Assembly: GCA_014380485.1 (NCBI GenBank)
Contig: JACMJU010000094.1
Coordinates: 1 to 34,091, forward strand
Source of the DNA: Methyloceanibacter sp.
GTDB taxonomy: Bacteria; Pseudomonadota; Alphaproteobacteria; Rhizobiales; Methyloligellaceae
Direction: 5' to 3'
DNA: 34,091 nt
The translations under genes and the position numbers were made by a program. Below, piece by piece: positions 6,044 through 27,415 of this stretch (the stretch's first letter is position 1; each line of letters opens with the position of its first letter). The notes below the pieces were generated by a model that searched no databases, was not told where the DNA came from, and saw nothing but the letters and a program-made list of their open reading frames with translations.

Positions 6044-7057
6044 ATGTCGCCTGCCGTTAGATTCGTCAACGTGTCACGCCGGTTCGGCTCGGTCAGGGCC
6101 GTGGACGGCGTCACCCTCGACATCACCGAAGGTGAGTTCTTCGCCATGCTTGGCCCGTCGGGATCGGGCAAGACGACCTGCTTGCGCCTCATTGCCGGCT
6201 TCGAGCAACCCGATGACGGGCATATCGAGATCTTCGGCGAGACGGCCGACGGCGTTCCGCCTTACAAGCGCAACGTCAACACCGTGTTTCAGGATTACGC
6301 CCTTTTTCCCCATATGACGGTCGGCGAAAACGTCGCCTACGGTCTCAGGATCAAGGGCCAGGCCCGCGCCAAACGCGCGGCCAAGGCGAGAGACGCGCTT
6401 TCCATGGTCAAGCTCGCCGGATTCGAGGGGCGCCGCCCGGCGCAGCTTTCCGGCGGTCAGCGTCAACGCGTGGCGCTCGCGCGTGCGCTCGTGAACGGAC
6501 CCAAGGTGCTGCTTCTCGACGAACCGCTCGGCGCCCTTGATCTCAAGCTCCGGGAGCAGATGCAGGAGGAGCTGAAAGCCCTGCAGAAGGACCTTGGCAT
6601 CACCTTCGTCTTCGTGACCCACGATCAGGGCGAAGCGCTGTCGATGGCCGATCGTGTCGCCGTCTTCAACGAAGGCAGAATCGTTCAGGTTGGAGCACCT
6701 TCGTCCGTCTATGAGCGGCCCGAGTCGCGCTTCGTCGCCGACTTTGTCGGATCGTCGAATGTGCTTCCCCCCGCCTTCGCCTCCGGCCATGGCGGCGTTT
6801 CCAAGTGGACGAGCCTGAGGCCCGAGAAGATTGCCGTACACCCCGCGGGCACGGCCGTGCCGGAGAAGCACGCCGCGACCGAGGGCGAGATCAAGATGGT
6901 GAGCTATCAAGGCGCGGTCACAAGGTTCAACGTCGAGGCGGAAAAGATGCGCATTAACGCCGAGGTGCCGGCCGGCGACACCCGTTTCAAACCGGGCGAC
7001 AGCGTGCGGCTCATTTGGCCCAAATCGGCCATGGTCACCATGGAGGAGGGCGCGTGA
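6044..7057 (+). CDS. ABC transporter ATP-binding protein, polyamine type (YdcT/PotA-like)
   Basis: Walker A GPSGSGKTT, signature LSGGQRQRVALARAL, Walker B VLLLDEPLGALD, C-terminal TOBE-like region. Confidence 0.95.
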   Translation: MSPAVRFVNVSRRFGSVRAVDGVTLDITEGEFFAMLGPSGSGKTTCLRLIAGFEQPDDGHIEIFGETADGVPPYKRNVNTVFQDYALFPHMTVGENVAYGLRIKGQARAKRAAKARDALSMVKLAGFEGRRPAQLSGGQRQRVALARALVNGPKVLLLDEPLGALDLKLREQMQEELKALQKDLGITFVFVTHDQGEALSMADRVAVFNEGRIVQVGAPSSVYERPESRFVADFVGSSNVLPPAFASGHGGVSKWTSLRPEKIAVHPAGTAVPEKHAATEGEIKMVSYQGAVTRFNVEAEKMRINAEVPAGDTRFKPGDSVRLIWPKSAMVTMEEGA

Positions 7058-18138: not shown

Positions 18139-19365
18139 TCACGGAGTTGCTTGAGTAGCCGCGGGGGCGGCCTCCGCCTCTTGCGGTTTGGCCTCGACCA
18201 CGGGCGGCTTCCCTTGACCGGGCGCAAGCGGCCCGCGCCAAGCCTCGAAGCGCTGCTGCAGCCCCGCGCCGTTCGTATTCCACCACGCGTCGTCGAATTT
18301 GAGCGCCTTCTTGAAGTTGTCCGGCGCGGTGGGAAGGAACGCCGTCATCTCGACGTCGATCGCGGGATGTTTGCCCACGAGAGGAAGGGCCGACTTCCGC
18401 ATCGGACCATAGGCGATCAGTTGCGCCTGCAGCGCGAGGCGCGCGGGCTCGGTGGCAAAGGTGATGAAGCGCAATGCTCCATCCTTGTTCTTTGCGCTCT
18501 TGGGTATGGCCCAAAGATCGAGATCGTAGACTTGGCCGTCCCAGATCACCGCGAACCTCTGGCGGTCGCCGATGAGGGCGCGGAAGAGGCGCCCGCTATA
18601 GCCCGCCGCCATCGTCACTTTCTTCTCCTGGAGCCACGTCATCGGCTCCTCGGCGCGGTCCCACCAAAAGATTTCGCCTTTGATCTTGTCGAGCGCCTGA
18701 AAGGCGCGGTCCGCGCCCGCTTGCGTTGCAAGCTCGCCATAGACATTGGCCGGGTCGACCCCGTCGGCGAGCAGTGCAAGCTCGAGCGTCTGGCGCGGGC
18801 TGTTCGGCAGCGCCCGTTTGCCGGGGAAGCGCTTGGCATCGAGCAGGTCGGCGATCTGCGAAGGAGAGGCCTTGCTAAAGGCCCGGCGGTCGAAGGCAAC
18901 CGCCGTGGACCAGGCGACGCTGGCGACGCCGCAAGGCGAAAGACCGCCCGCGAAGAAGTCCTGTTCCGCGCTCTCTCCCGAGGGGGCAGCGCCGAGGCTC
19001 GAGGGTGATATCGCTTCAAGCAGCCCTTCGTTGCAGAGGGCGTTGAGCGTGGCCGCCGACACGTCCACGACATCGATTGCGGAGTCATCGCCGCCGATCA
19101 GCTCTTTGATCTTGACGAGCGTGCCGTCATAGATCTCGGTCGCGATCCTGGTGCCGGTCTCCTTTGCGAACGGTTCGAAGAAGGCGATCTCCTGCGATTG
19201 ACCGTAGGCCCCGCCCCAAGTGGCGATGTTGAGCGTGTCCTCGGCCAGAGCGCCGGCCGAACCGCTGAAGCCGGCCGCCAGAGCTGCCGCAAGCGCGCCC
19301 CTCCGGCCAAATGCGCCGGCCATCGCCAGCACTCCACGAAGATGACGATTGAGTTGTCCGGACAC
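18139..19365 (-). CDS. Extracellular solute-binding protein (PotD-like)
   Basis: Signal region ALAAALAAGFSGSAGALAEDTLNIATWGGAYGQSQEIAFFEPFAKETGTRIATEIYDG...; WWDRAEEPMTWLQEKKVTMAAGYSGR. No ABC partner genes adjacent. Confidence 0.85.
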   Translation of the reverse strand: MSGQLNRHLRGVLAMAGAFGRRGALAAALAAGFSGSAGALAEDTLNIATWGGAYGQSQEIAFFEPFAKETGTRIATEIYDGTLVKIKELIGGDDSAIDVVDVSAATLNALCNEGLLEAISPSSLGAAPSGESAEQDFFAGGLSPCGVASVAWSTAVAFDRRAFSKASPSQIADLLDAKRFPGKRALPNSPRQTLELALLADGVDPANVYGELATQAGADRAFQALDKIKGEIFWWDRAEEPMTWLQEKKVTMAAGYSGRLFRALIGDRQRFAVIWDGQVYDLDLWAIPKSAKNKDGALRFITFATEPARLALQAQLIAYGPMRKSALPLVGKHPAIDVEMTAFLPTAPDNFKKALKFDDAWWNTNGAGLQQRFEAWRGPLAPGQGKPPVVEAKPQEAEAAPAATQATP

Positions 19366-19401: not shown

Positions 19402-21213
19402 TCAACGCGGTGAAACCTGGGTGGCCTTCGTATTCGTCTGCACCGACCCTTTGCCGAGATCGGGACGGTCTGCCCTCCGAATCATCGGTTGCGTGAGCGC
19501 CCCGCTTATCGAGATCCGGGGCGGGGTCGCCGCGCTGAGCTGCGACGCCTTCAAGGGCGCAGCGTGATTGGCGACGAATAGGCGCCAATCGAGAGTCTGC
19601 TGCCCCAAATTGACGTCACCCGAGCCGGAAATCAACCCACGCCCTGTTTGCATGTTGAATTTCTCACACCAAATATGGCCATCACCGAGGCGACATTCGG
19701 CGTTGAGATCCTCGAACGCGGTAGCGCTGTTGCTGCTCCAACCCTCTCCTTCGAGCGAGCCCGACCCCGCAAATAGGCGGGCAATATCGACCGGAACGGC
19801 TCCGCTACGGGCCTTAATCTTGAATGGACCCTGCAATCCTTGCGTCAGTTCGTCATAATCGCGTCCCTCGGTGGAGAACTCGGCCTTCAACGTGCCCACG
19901 CCGCTAAGGGGGACACGGAGCCCGAGTGGTCCGAGACATCCCTCGATCGGCACATCGGACAATTTCCCCGTGAGTGTGGCCTTGGCGACCGCCCGCGAAA
20001 GATCGAGGCCAATTCGACCCGCTGCCGAGCCGCCGCAGACCTCGAGCTCGCCCACTTCGCTTGCAACCAAACCTTGCCGCGCACTGATGGTGAAACCGCC
20101 GCGCCCAAGCCTGACGGCGGGGGCGGTGATCTCCGCCGCGGAGATGCGCAGATCGGTGTCGAAATAGTTGAGGACGGCTTGATCGGTGAGCGCAACGCTT
20201 ACTGGCGGCACCGCCGGCGCGCCGCTGCCAACATAGGGGTCGAGCACGAGCCGGTCGAAATCAAGCGTGCCATCGATACGCGGGCGCGCGCCGGGGGTGA
20301 CGGCGAGGGCCCCGACCGCGGTGTTGCCGTCAAGCGTGAACGAGCCGTCGTCGACGATCAGCGTCATGCCGTTCCAACGCGCCTTGCCCGAGGCCGAGAG
20401 CCTTTTAAAGCTCTCGCCCTCAGCCAGCGCGATACCGGCCCACCTTGAAAACGCACGGGCGTCCGCCATGTCGGCCTGCATATCGCCTTCGAGTTCAAAT
20501 CCGCTGGTGAATGAGGCCGTGCCGGTGACCGTGGCCGTCACCGGCGTCGAGGTAAAGGCGAATCTCACCGGGAAACTGAGGCCGCCCGCCGTCTCCGCAG
20601 GTACGCCGGAATCGAGGGCAAAGCCCACAGTTTCGTCGCGGAGCACGAAGGAACCGAAACTCGACATCGCTCCGGTGCCCGAGCTTAGATCGAATCTGGC
20701 GTCGACCTTGTCGATCGTTTCTGTGCCCGAAGCGGTTGGCATCCGGAGAGTGCCGCCGCGCACGCGGAGCACGCGGAGCGGCGCGCCCCTTAGGAGATTG
20801 GCGACGCGCGCCTGCAAGGTCTGGTCGGGCCCCATGATCAGGGACGGCGCCTCTTTGAGGATAATCTCAGGTCTGATGAGCCGAACGGCATCGACGCGCA
20901 TGCGGCCGCGGAACAGCGCGGCGAGATCGAGCGAAATTCTGGCGTCGCTCGCGACGATCGATTTCACCATCGGAAGGCGCGAAGCGTTGGTCAGTTCGAA
21001 GCCGCTCTTGATCGCCACATCGGGGAAGTACTGCACCCGCAGCGGCCCGGTCAGCCTGACCTCTCCACCGGTCCACGCGGCGAGCGCGATCGAGGCGCGA
21101 TTGGCAAGTTGAGAAGAATCGCCGAACAGCCGCGGCAAGGTCGCAAGACCGACAAGGAGAAGCGCGATGAGGCCAAGAAGAAGCCATTTCCAATCGATCC
21201 GGCGAGGCTTCAT
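19402..21213 (-). CDS. AsmA family protein
   Basis: N-terminal TM followed by IALAAWTGGEVRLTGPLRVQYFPDVAIKSGFELTNASRL..., C-terminal GLQGPFKIKARSGAVPVDIARLF...; AsmA N- and C-terminal signatures. Confidence 0.85.
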   Translation of the reverse strand: MKPRRIDWKWLLLGLIALLLVGLATLPRLFGDSSQLANRASIALAAWTGGEVRLTGPLRVQYFPDVAIKSGFELTNASRLPMVKSIVASDARISLDLAALFRGRMRVDAVRLIRPEIILKEAPSLIMGPDQTLQARVANLLRGAPLRVLRVRGGTLRMPTASGTETIDKVDARFDLSSGTGAMSSFGSFVLRDETVGFALDSGVPAETAGGLSFPVRFAFTSTPVTATVTGTASFTSGFELEGDMQADMADARAFSRWAGIALAEGESFKRLSASGKARWNGMTLIVDDGSFTLDGNTAVGALAVTPGARPRIDGTLDFDRLVLDPYVGSGAPAVPPVSVALTDQAVLNYFDTDLRISAAEITAPAVRLGRGGFTISARQGLVASEVGELEVCGGSAAGRIGLDLSRAVAKATLTGKLSDVPIEGCLGPLGLRVPLSGVGTLKAEFSTEGRDYDELTQGLQGPFKIKARSGAVPVDIARLFAGSGSLEGEGWSSNSATAFEDLNAECRLGDGHIWCEKFNMQTGRGLISGSGDVNLGQQTLDWRLFVANHAAPLKASQLSAATPPRISISGALTQPMIRRADRPDLGKGSVQTNTKATQVSPR

Positions 21214-21371: not shown

Positions 21372-23102
21372 TCAGGGCCTCTCGACGGGTGCGCCAGGAT
21401 CGCCGATAGAGCTTCCCGGCCGGTTTCCCACCATGATCCCGTGAAGCAGGAGAACGGGAGCGAGACTGGCCGCCACGATGGTCAGGGCGGAAAGCCCCGC
21501 CTCCTCGTAACGATAGAGCGAGACCAGCGTGAACACCTGCGTGGCGAGCGTATCGAAGTTGAAGGGTCTGAGCAGAAGCGTCGCGGGGAGCTCCTTCATC
21601 GAGTCGACGAACACGAGGAGCGCGGCGGCGCCGAGCGCGGGCCTGAGCAGGGGCAGATGCACCTTGAACAGCATCTCACTGATCGTCGCGCCGAGCGAGC
21701 GCGCGGCTTCATCGACATTGCGGGACACCTTGCTCAAGCCTGCCTCCACGGCGCCGAGTCCCGCGGCCAGGAAGCGGATGGTGTAGGCGAGCACAATGGC
21801 GAAGGCGGTCCCCGACAACAGCAGTCCCGTGGGAACTCCGAACAGGGACCGGCTCAAGGAGTCGACGAAATTGTCGACGCCTGCGAGCGGAATGAGGAGG
21901 CCGACCGCGAGCACGGTGCCGGGCACGGCGTAGCTGATGGCGGGAAGCGTGCTGGCCGCGTGAACGAGTTTCGAGCGCGTCTGCCGCCGCGCGTAGGCCA
22001 GCACCAAGGCGAAGCCGACCGCAAGAATGGCCGCCGCCGCGGCGAGCAAAAGGCTATTCAACGCGGCTCGCCAAAACGCCGGCGCCAGGCCTGCCGCCAC
22101 ATGGGCGAGCGCATCATGGAGGAGCACGCCCGCCGGGATGAGGAAGCCGAACAACACCGGCACCGCGCAGCCGAGTGCCGCAAGCGCCCCGCGCACACCT
22201 TCGAGCGTATCCTCCGGCAAGCGGCGGTATTTGCCGGTCGTATGGTGGAAGCGGCGGCTGGCCCTCAACGCCCGCTCGAGAACGAGCAATGCGAATACGA
22301 ATAACAGCATGACGCAGGCGATTTGTGCCGCCCCGGCAAGGTTATTGCGATCGAGCCAGGTATCGTAGACGGCGACCGTCAGCGTTCTGACCCCGAAAAA
22401 CTCGACGGCCCCGATGTCGTTCAGCGTCTCCATGAGTGCGAGCGCGACGCCTGCGGCGAGTGCGGGCCTGGCCAGCGGCAGGGCGACTTCCCAGAAAGTC
22501 TGGGCCGAGTTGCGCCCCAGCGTGCGGCTTACCTCCAGGACGCAGACCGACTGGGCGATGAAAGTCGCCCGGGCGGTGATGTAGACATAGGGGTAGAGCA
22601 CCCCGCTCATCACGAGGATGGCGCCGCCGAGGCTGCGGATATCGGGGACCCAATAGCTCCGCGCGTCGCGCCAGCCGAACAGGGCGCGCAAGGCGCTCTG
22701 CACCGTCCCGGAATAATCGAGCAATTCGAGATAGGAATAGGCAATGATGTAGGTCGGGATCGCGAGCGGCAGGAGCAGCAGCCACTGGAAGTAGCGTCGC
22801 CCGGGAAAGCGATACATGGTCACGAGCCAGGCGGTCCCGGTGCCGATCAGGAGACTTAAGGACCCTACTCCCGCCAGCAACAGAAGCGTGCGGCGAAGCG
22901 CTCCCGGGAGCACATTGGCGACGAGATGCGGCCAGGTGTCGCCGCTCGGCTTGAGCGCGATCGCGACGATGGCGAAGATGGGCAGAAGCGAGATCAGCGA
23001 GATGAGGAGCGCCGCCGCCGACCAGCCAACATTGCCGCTTTCCGTGAGGCGGGCCAGCCGCCGGCGCAAAGGAGGCCGCTCGGATGACACCGCTAGAGCC
23101 AT
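21372..23102 (-). CDS. Iron(III) ABC transporter permease, fused double-domain (FbpB/SfuB-like)
   Basis: Two EAA loops: LEVSRTLGRNSAQTFWEVALPLARPALAAGVALALMETLNDIGAVEFFGV and DEAARSLGATISEMLFKVHLPLLRPALGAAALLVFVDSMKELPATLLLRPF. Confidence 0.92.
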   Translation of the reverse strand: MALAVSSERPPLRRRLARLTESGNVGWSAAALLISLISLLPIFAIVAIALKPSGDTWPHLVANVLPGALRRTLLLLAGVGSLSLLIGTGTAWLVTMYRFPGRRYFQWLLLLPLAIPTYIIAYSYLELLDYSGTVQSALRALFGWRDARSYWVPDIRSLGGAILVMSGVLYPYVYITARATFIAQSVCVLEVSRTLGRNSAQTFWEVALPLARPALAAGVALALMETLNDIGAVEFFGVRTLTVAVYDTWLDRNNLAGAAQIACVMLLFVFALLVLERALRASRRFHHTTGKYRRLPEDTLEGVRGALAALGCAVPVLFGFLIPAGVLLHDALAHVAAGLAPAFWRAALNSLLLAAAAAILAVGFALVLAYARRQTRSKLVHAASTLPAISYAVPGTVLAVGLLIPLAGVDNFVDSLSRSLFGVPTGLLLSGTAFAIVLAYTIRFLAAGLGAVEAGLSKVSRNVDEAARSLGATISEMLFKVHLPLLRPALGAAALLVFVDSMKELPATLLLRPFNFDTLATQVFTLVSLYRYEEAGLSALTIVAASLAPVLLLHGIMVGNRPGSSIGDPGAPVERP

Positions 23103-23127: not shown

Positions 23128-23661
23128 TTAGCTGAGCGCGAGACCGTTCCCGCCGCCCCTGCGCCGTCCGGCCATCAACGCCGCCACGGCGTCCGGCGAC
23201 AGACGCTGGTCGGCTTGGTGAAGCGCGTCGGCAAAGGCGTTGGCGGTCTCCAGCACCGGGTCTACGTGATCCGATCCGGTCAGCGCCAGCGCGCACGCGC
23301 GCATCGCCGGACAGCGATGATGCTGGGATGCCGCGATCAGCGAAATCGCCAAACACTCGTCGGCGCAGAAGCCCGGACAGCCGAACGGAGAGTATGCGAT
23401 CTTGCGCGAGGCCGAGGCACGTACCGCCCGCACGAAGCAGGCAAGCTCGGTCACCGCCCGCCTTGCCCGCTCGGCGCCGAGCGCGCGCGCATACTCATTC
23501 CAGCCGTTCTCCCAACAGGCAATGTCGCCGGTGTCATAGCCTGCGAGCCAGCACCGGAAACCGACCCCGACCAGCCACTCCGCGCCGCATCGGGGCGGAA
23601 CGCGCCCTGACGCTCCGGCCCCGCCGGAAACGTGCCGATCGATCTTCTTATCGAAGCTCAT
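23128..23661 (-). CDS. Cys-rich hypothetical protein encoded within an iron ABC operon
   Basis: MSFDKKIDRHVSGGAGASGRVPPRCGAEWLVGVGFRCWLAGYDTGDIACWENGWNEYARALG...CPGFCADECL...HHRCPAMRAC; sits in the same direction between the SBP and permease genes with short gaps. Confidence 0.75.
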   Translation of the reverse strand: MSFDKKIDRHVSGGAGASGRVPPRCGAEWLVGVGFRCWLAGYDTGDIACWENGWNEYARALGAERARRAVTELACFVRAVRASASRKIAYSPFGCPGFCADECLAISLIAASQHHRCPAMRACALALTGSDHVDPVLETANAFADALHQADQRLSPDAVAALMAGRRRGGGNGLALS

Positions 23662-23671
23662 TCTTGCCCCC

Positions 23672-24718
23672 TCATGAACTCGGACCCTCGTCGAATCCGA
23701 CCTTGTCGACGAGCTCGCTTGCCTTCTTGCGAAGTGCGGCAATGTCGTTGAGCGAGATCGGGTCCGGCTTGAAATCGCCCCACGATTTGACCAGCGGCGA
23801 CCACGGGACGCCTTCCTTCACCGGATATTCGTTGTTCACGTCCGCATAGAGTTCCTGCCCCCGGTCGGAAGCCAAGAACTCGACGAGCTTCACGGCGTTG
23901 TCCTTGTGTGGCGCATGCTTTGCCACCACCGCGCCGGAGACATTCACATGGGTGCCGCGCTCGTCTGAGTTGGGGAAGAGGATGTTGACAGAATCAGCCC
24001 ATGCCTTCTGCTCGGGCGCTTTATCGTTCTTGAGCATCACGCCCATGTAGTAGGTGTTGCCGATGGCGATGTCGCATTCGCCGGAATAGACGCCCTTGAC
24101 CTGAAGCCGATCGTCTCCGGCGGGCTTCCGCGCGAGATTGGCCTTCACCCCTTTCAGCCATTGCTCGGTCCACGCCTCGCCGTGATGGGCGATCATGGAG
24201 GCGATCAGGGCGACGTTGTAGCCGTGTTGGCCCGAGCGGATGCAGATCTTGCCCCGCCATTTTCGATCGGCGAGTTCCTCGTAGGTGATCGACTCCTGCT
24301 TCACCCGTTCCTTTGAGGCGTAGACCACACGGGCGCGGCGCGTCAGGCCGAACCACTGGCCATCTTCGGCGCGATAGGCTTGCGGGATCGCGGCGTCGAG
24401 CGCGGCCGAGCGAATGGGCTGCGCGATGCCGGAAGCGGTCGCTTGCGTGAGATTGCCGATATCGACGGTAAGCAGCACATCGGCAGGGCTGTTTCGTCCC
24501 TCGGCCTGGATGCGCTCGATCAGGCCTTTCTCGGCGAAGATCACATTGACCTTGATGCCGGTCTCTAGGGTGAACTCCTTGAGCAGGGGCTCGATCAGAT
24601 AAGGCTGGCGGTACGAATAGATATTCACCTCGCCAGGACCGGCGGCCTCAGCTTGCGAAGCGGCGAGAACAAGGGAGAGAAGGGCGGGCGCGAGGACGCG
24701 CGCCGGGACAAATCGCAT
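23672..24718 (-). CDS. Iron(III) ABC transporter substrate-binding protein (FbpA/FutA-like)
   Basis: GEVNIYSYRQPYLIEPLLKEFTLETGIKVNVIFAEKGLIERIQAEGRNSPADVLLTVDIGNL...; YSGECDIAIGNTYYMGVML; NEYPVKEGVPWSPLVKSWGDFKPD. Confidence 0.94.
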   Translation of the reverse strand: MRFVPARVLAPALLSLVLAASQAEAAGPGEVNIYSYRQPYLIEPLLKEFTLETGIKVNVIFAEKGLIERIQAEGRNSPADVLLTVDIGNLTQATASGIAQPIRSAALDAAIPQAYRAEDGQWFGLTRRARVVYASKERVKQESITYEELADRKWRGKICIRSGQHGYNVALIASMIAHHGEAWTEQWLKGVKANLARKPAGDDRLQVKGVYSGECDIAIGNTYYMGVMLKNDKAPEQKAWADSVNILFPNSDERGTHVNVSGAVVAKHAPHKDNAVKLVEFLASDRGQELYADVNNEYPVKEGVPWSPLVKSWGDFKPDPISLNDIAALRKKASELVDKVGFDEGPSS

Positions 24719-24857
24719 CTTTCCTCCAATGGCCGGGGTTCAAGGCCTCGGTATCGGATCTATGACTCTGGCGCCCCGACCGCGCGTCAGGGGCCCAATC
24801 CCTCGCTTAGGGCGTCAGCCGAGGCAATGTCAACAAGATTACCTTGATCTAATCGAC

Positions 24858-24874
24858 TTTAGAAATCTTCTAAT
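24858..24874. promoter_or_regulatory. Irr-box (ICE)-like palindrome upstream of the iron transporter operon
   Basis: TTTAGAA-ATC-TTCTAAT, containing the perfect inverted repeat TTAGAA-N3-TTCTAA, in an AT-rich region about 140 bp upstream of the SBP start. Confidence 0.65.
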
Positions 24875-27338: not shown

Positions 27339-27415
27339 GCCGCCGTAGCTCAGCTGGTTAGAGCGCTTGACTGTGGATCAAGAGGTCGGCGATTCGAATT
27401 CGCCCGGCGGTACCA
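27339..27415 (+). tRNA. tRNA-His (GTG anticodon), CCA encoded
   Basis: GCCGCCGTAGCTCAGCTGGTTAGAGCGCTTGACTGTGGATCAAGAGGTCGGCGATTCGAATTCGCCCGGCGGTACCA folds as a cloverleaf; anticodon loop CTGTGGA. Confidence 0.96.

Follow-up and report, generated by a model that had tools for sequence, protein, structure and literature searches.

A conserved cysteine-rich protein family encoded beside iron-uptake genes as a probable, overlooked component of the internal iron-starvation response in Alphaproteobacteria

The window, that is, the whole stretch of 34,091 nucleotides that was analysed, carries on its minus strand a short operon in which the gene for a small cysteine-rich protein lies between the genes for an iron(III) substrate-binding protein (SBP) and an ABC permease. 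In the direction of transcription, the features of this region are the following:

24858–24874, minus strand: Irr/ICE-like operator dyad ATTAGAAGATTTCTAAA, with one mismatch to TTTAGAA-N3-TTCTAAA and a core that is unique in the assembly
24828–24833, minus strand: likely −35 box TTGACA; the ICE core lies 25 bp upstream, a spacing kept in most of the loci compared
24805–24810, minus strand: tentative, weak −10 element CTAAGC, proposed because TAAGC is conserved in nearby relatives
24733–24751, minus strand: conserved leader hairpin CCGAGG-CCTTGAA-CCCCGG, immediately before the Shine–Dalgarno sequence of the SBP gene
23672–24718, minus strand: FbpA-type Fe(III) SBP, which opens the operon and whose Tyr-Tyr pair (GNTYYMG) aligns with FbpA
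23128–23661, minus strand: cysteine-rich gene of 177 codons plus stop, with an ATG start and no match in Pfam, NCBIfam or PDB
21372–23102, minus strand: fused two-unit ABC permease, matched twice by BPD_transp_1 and FbpB-like by position and partner
19402–21213, minus strand: AsmA-family gene, directly after the permease

The three reading frames of the operon share the minus strand and are separated by only 10 bp (SBP to cysteine-rich gene) and 25 bp (cysteine-rich gene to permease), which bears out the short gaps given in the preliminary description of this DNA. Its assignment of the operon to iron(III) uptake is likewise upheld by the SBP, whose best relative in PDB is Mannheimia FbpA (1q35, E 2.6e-109). 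Canonical FbpABC/FutABC operons have the gene order SBP–permease–ATPase. The present operon has the same kind of flanking SBP, with a permease of the fused two-unit BPD type, but an apparently soluble cysteine protein is encoded between the SBP and the permease, and an adjacent ATPase gene is lacking. No ATPase gene adjoins the operon: the next gene on the same strand after the permease is AsmA-like, and the ABC ATPase observed elsewhere in the window (6044–7057, plus strand) lies beside a different SBP. A further extracellular solute-binding protein (SBP_bac_8; 18139–19365, minus strand) is encoded downstream of the AsmA gene, and a tRNA gene (Rfam RF00005, 70.5 bits) is located at 27339–27412 on the plus strand. 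No imelysin is encoded in the part of the window around the cysteine-rich gene.

The encoded protein had been described as having about 178 residues; it is present and is 177 residues long. It contains nine cysteines, at positions 25, 37, 49, 75, 95, 99, 103, 117 and 123, and the motifs CPGFCADEC, HHRCPAMRAC and the Trp/Gly-rich WLAGYDTGDIACWENGWNEY, all of them as quoted earlier. Conservation marks the gene as real rather than a chance open reading frame, because its homologues are 65–82% identical within the genus and recognisable ones occur across the class. The nearest relatives are from Methyloceanibacter. Homologues occur in 26 of the 30 genomes searched from the family, in 135 of 398 from the order and, with the profile, in 52 of 385 from the class. 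Three family queries gave no match in annotated plasmid records.

The earlier statement that no family can be assigned agrees with the database searches. The single protein has no meaningful match in Pfam, NCBIfam or PDB (in Pfam, none up to an E value of 1), and an alignment of 56 family members matches these databases at chance level, except for weak matches to DUF6628. Matches to alpha-catenin in PDB, with E of about 1, were rejected as chance. The Pfam family DUF6628 (PF20333) is matched weakly by four of the 56 members (best E 0.0021), and its curated profile cut-off is not reached by the 177-residue protein. In a profile–profile comparison (hhalign) of the family with eight DUF6628 proteins, the probability was 95.4 with E 1.8e-8 over 127 columns, and DUF6628, whose function is unknown, can therefore be regarded as a distant relative. 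In addition, there is one place in genome G419 that is matched by both profiles. The DUF6628 proteins share with the family the helix-1 Arg, the P-x-C element and the Glu later in the motif; those found here are without the C99/C103 and C117/C123 sets. Distant members of the family itself carry the motif YHQPCCPCLGxDE. The bacterioferritin-associated ferredoxin Bfd (Fer2_BFD) is likewise small, cytosolic, cysteine-containing and iron-regulated, but it shows no sequence match: the Fer2_BFD profile matches neither the single protein nor the 56-member alignment. The family may have been described before: the gene of Rrp1 in Rhizobium leguminosarum, reportedly located before the imelysin gene irpA and expressed in a RirA-dependent manner, would occupy a position resembling that of the family.

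In near relatives, the order SBP–cysteine-rich gene–permease is fixed, so the conservation of neighbourhood that had been proposed as a check is indeed observed. Many other homologues are the first gene of an operon encoding an imelysin (Peptidase_M75), a di-haem oxidoreductase (DHOR) and a second imelysin. Among 135 immediate neighbours at 68 distant loci, we counted 19 imelysins, 7 SBPs and 5 permeases, and no other protein family came near these numbers. At one locus (L051) both arrangements meet in one direction: an SBP, the family gene, a gene grouping with those of imelysin operons, a DHOR and a second imelysin. An iron marker lies within 3.5 kb of 40 of 72 family genes and is lacking for the remaining 32, this being a raw count without a genome-wide background; some homologues lie a few kb from bfr/bfd. 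On a quick tree, whose details are left unsure by long branches, SBP linkage and imelysin linkage each changed at least four times on starred branches, and the coupling to iron loci therefore looks recurrent rather than inherited once. Imelysin/EfeB-type operons (PA4370–4373-like) have been tied to iron uptake, and the parts of that work considered here describe imelysins and EfeB homologues but not the cysteine-rich protein (PMC3143127); many homologues lie directly upstream of an imelysin–DHOR–imelysin set.

These neighbourhoods bear on the role that had been proposed for the protein in serving the transporter. A dedicated ABC-transporter accessory, docking on the cytosolic side of the permease and gating or coupling transport, would fit the place between the SBP and permease genes, invariable in near relatives, and extra cytosolic partners are conceivable given that the ATPase gene is not directly next; it is nevertheless quite unlikely, as many homologues are solo or belong to imelysin/DHOR operons, with SBP and permease genes absent within 3.5 kb. 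The idea of a family specific to the ABC transporter was dropped on account of the imelysin-linked and solo homologues, and the restriction of the role to the transporter does not hold for homologues that accompany imelysin operons or stand alone behind Fur-type sites.

The dyad upstream of the SBP gene, TTAGAAATCTTCTAA, has one mismatch to the search pattern TTTAGAA-N3-TTCTAAA, which we take to be the Irr/ICE consensus. Dyads with up to three mismatches occur at 34 of 37 SBP-linked loci, against a mean of 0.62 in mononucleotide shuffles searched with this pattern; since these loci are related, the count does not represent 37 independent events. Such a dyad is present at 15 of the 26 imelysin-linked homologues, against 0.57 expected. 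In most loci the dyad ends 25 bp before TTGAC, an activator-like position; published descriptions of the ICE give an imperfect inverted repeat of 21 bp that is rich in AT and required for positive control of hmuT and hmuR (PMC3836376, PMC5599777). A generic sigma-70 scan returned no full-consensus promoter, and the TTGAC box is evident only by comparing loci. The leader hairpin, in the form CC[GA]GGG-CCTTGAA-CCC[CT]GG, recurs in most of the Methyloceanibacter-like loci, where two of its positions show paired changes (G-C to A-U), and has no match in Rfam.

The assembly encodes Irr, with 213.9 bits to the IrrA equivalog against a curated cut-off of 150. At the level of sequence, the operon thus combines an ICE-type dyad upstream with an Irr-encoding genome, as expected of a member of the Irr/ICE regulon. 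The ICE core occurs a single time in the 1.88-Mb assembly, at the position given above, and the only other sites with up to two mismatches (L134 and L135; G000 C84 and C108) lie by a cysteine desulfurase gene and by an NfuA-like gene, which suggests a link between Irr and Fe-S assembly. Were the regulon to include Fe-S assembly, as the position of these sites before the two genes implies, the protein could be an assistant of haem or Fe-S assembly that is co-expressed with iron uptake and passes iron, e.g., to Suf or to the ferrochelatase step. We regard this as very unlikely, no homologue lying beside suf/isc genes in the sampled neighbourhoods.

Outside the order, the regulatory picture is of another kind. 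Irr/ICE-like sites are found in Hyphomicrobiales, and homologues outside it have Fur-like dyads instead: 14 of 21 class-level homologues, often solo, carry near their start a dyad that resembles a Fur box, against 0.15 expected, a count that is partly post hoc because the pattern was composed after those upstream regions had been viewed. Two kinds of putative iron-regulator site on one family are the strongest functional evidence that we have. The repeated linkage to iron loci and the Irr/ICE-like and Fur-like sites thus give good sequence support for a role of the family in iron-regulated iron physiology; the link to iron supposed in the preliminary description turns out to be stronger than it had assumed. 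The family thus appears real and conserved, is probably iron-regulated and is without an assigned function.

As regards the residues, all 81 tabulated rows keep R36 and E102, 78 of them keep Q113, and E28, W38 and W50 hardly vary in the alignment of 56 rows. The most conserved cysteine is C95 (65 of 81 rows). C99 and C103 are mostly confined to Hyphomicrobiales, and C117 and C123 occur mainly in the SBP-linked branch, plus a small branch linked to aldehyde dehydrogenase. C95, C99 and C103 are all absent from three of four aldehyde-dehydrogenase-linked members and from some imelysin-linked paralogues. The term "cysteine-rich" is consequently true of the 177-residue protein and not of the family, in which the cysteine set varies, R36 and E102 being the sole universal residues. 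In one clade without C95, which it has lost, a CAxC pair lies some 10 residues upstream, and this fits a shifting set of thiol ligands. It should be noted that paralogues by aldehyde dehydrogenase and/or DUF779 genes (L046, L047, L058 and also L043) form one clade (99*), and that L046, L047 and L058 have a second copy, in divergent orientation, that heads an imelysin operon.

The paralogues without C95, C99 and C103 still keep R36, E102 and Q113, so that the conserved function may not need thiols. Their sequences count against thiols being essential throughout the family, and the variable cysteine set counts against a simple reading as a cysteine-rich Fe-S protein; both observations speak for a cytosolic thiol-redox protein or a sensor/adaptor of the low-iron response that binds no iron and protects or regulates other proteins under iron scarcity or oxidants. 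Solo copies behind Fur-like sites agree with such a protein, as does the identity of the universal residues, which are Arg and Glu, with Gln nearly so, and not Cys or His of the ligand type, but the cysteine-dense motifs in most branches, including DUF6628 (PxCC...E), and the CAxC near the lost C95 speak against it. We consider this explanation possible but less than likely, and rank it close behind iron handling.

The N-terminus of the protein has low hydropathy and no hydrophobic stretch, and AlphaFold2 with seven sequences gave an all-helical model of very low confidence (pLDDT 43), which together suggest a soluble, cytosolic protein. The reading that we favour, with a probability of roughly 0.45, is that the gene product, from an unnamed alphaproteobacterial family and part of the iron-starvation regulon, is soluble, helical and probably cytosolic and handles iron. 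Under low iron, apo-Irr would bind the upstream ICE and activate transcription from the TTGACA promoter. Least certain are the subsequent steps, in which the protein might bind iron or an Fe-S cluster via thiols around P-x-C95-x3-C99-x2-E102-C103, with R36 and E102 forming a conserved pair of structural or ligand residues, and might accept, reduce or buffer the iron newly delivered to the cytosol. Metal binding through the C95/C99/C103 region and E102 is possible. A broader version would see in these proteins an undescribed class of iron acceptor/reductase or iron chaperone of the cytosol that serves several unrelated uptake routes (FbpA-type ABC and imelysin/di-haem), with thiols swapped between lineages and the Arg and Glu fixed; it seems to us doubtful.

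Taken together, the cysteine-rich family is probably an internal component of the iron-starvation response that has been overlooked, because its genes repeatedly adjoin iron-uptake genes and follow putative iron-regulator sites. To our knowledge, the fate of Fe(III) after FbpABC-type importers have passed it to the cytosolic side is poorly understood, and a widespread, unannotated protein that is probably co-regulated with iron-uptake systems and repeatedly re-linked to them is a concrete candidate for this step. A named set of genes with putative operator sites is now open to direct tests, and the family would also offer a lead on the function of DUF6628.
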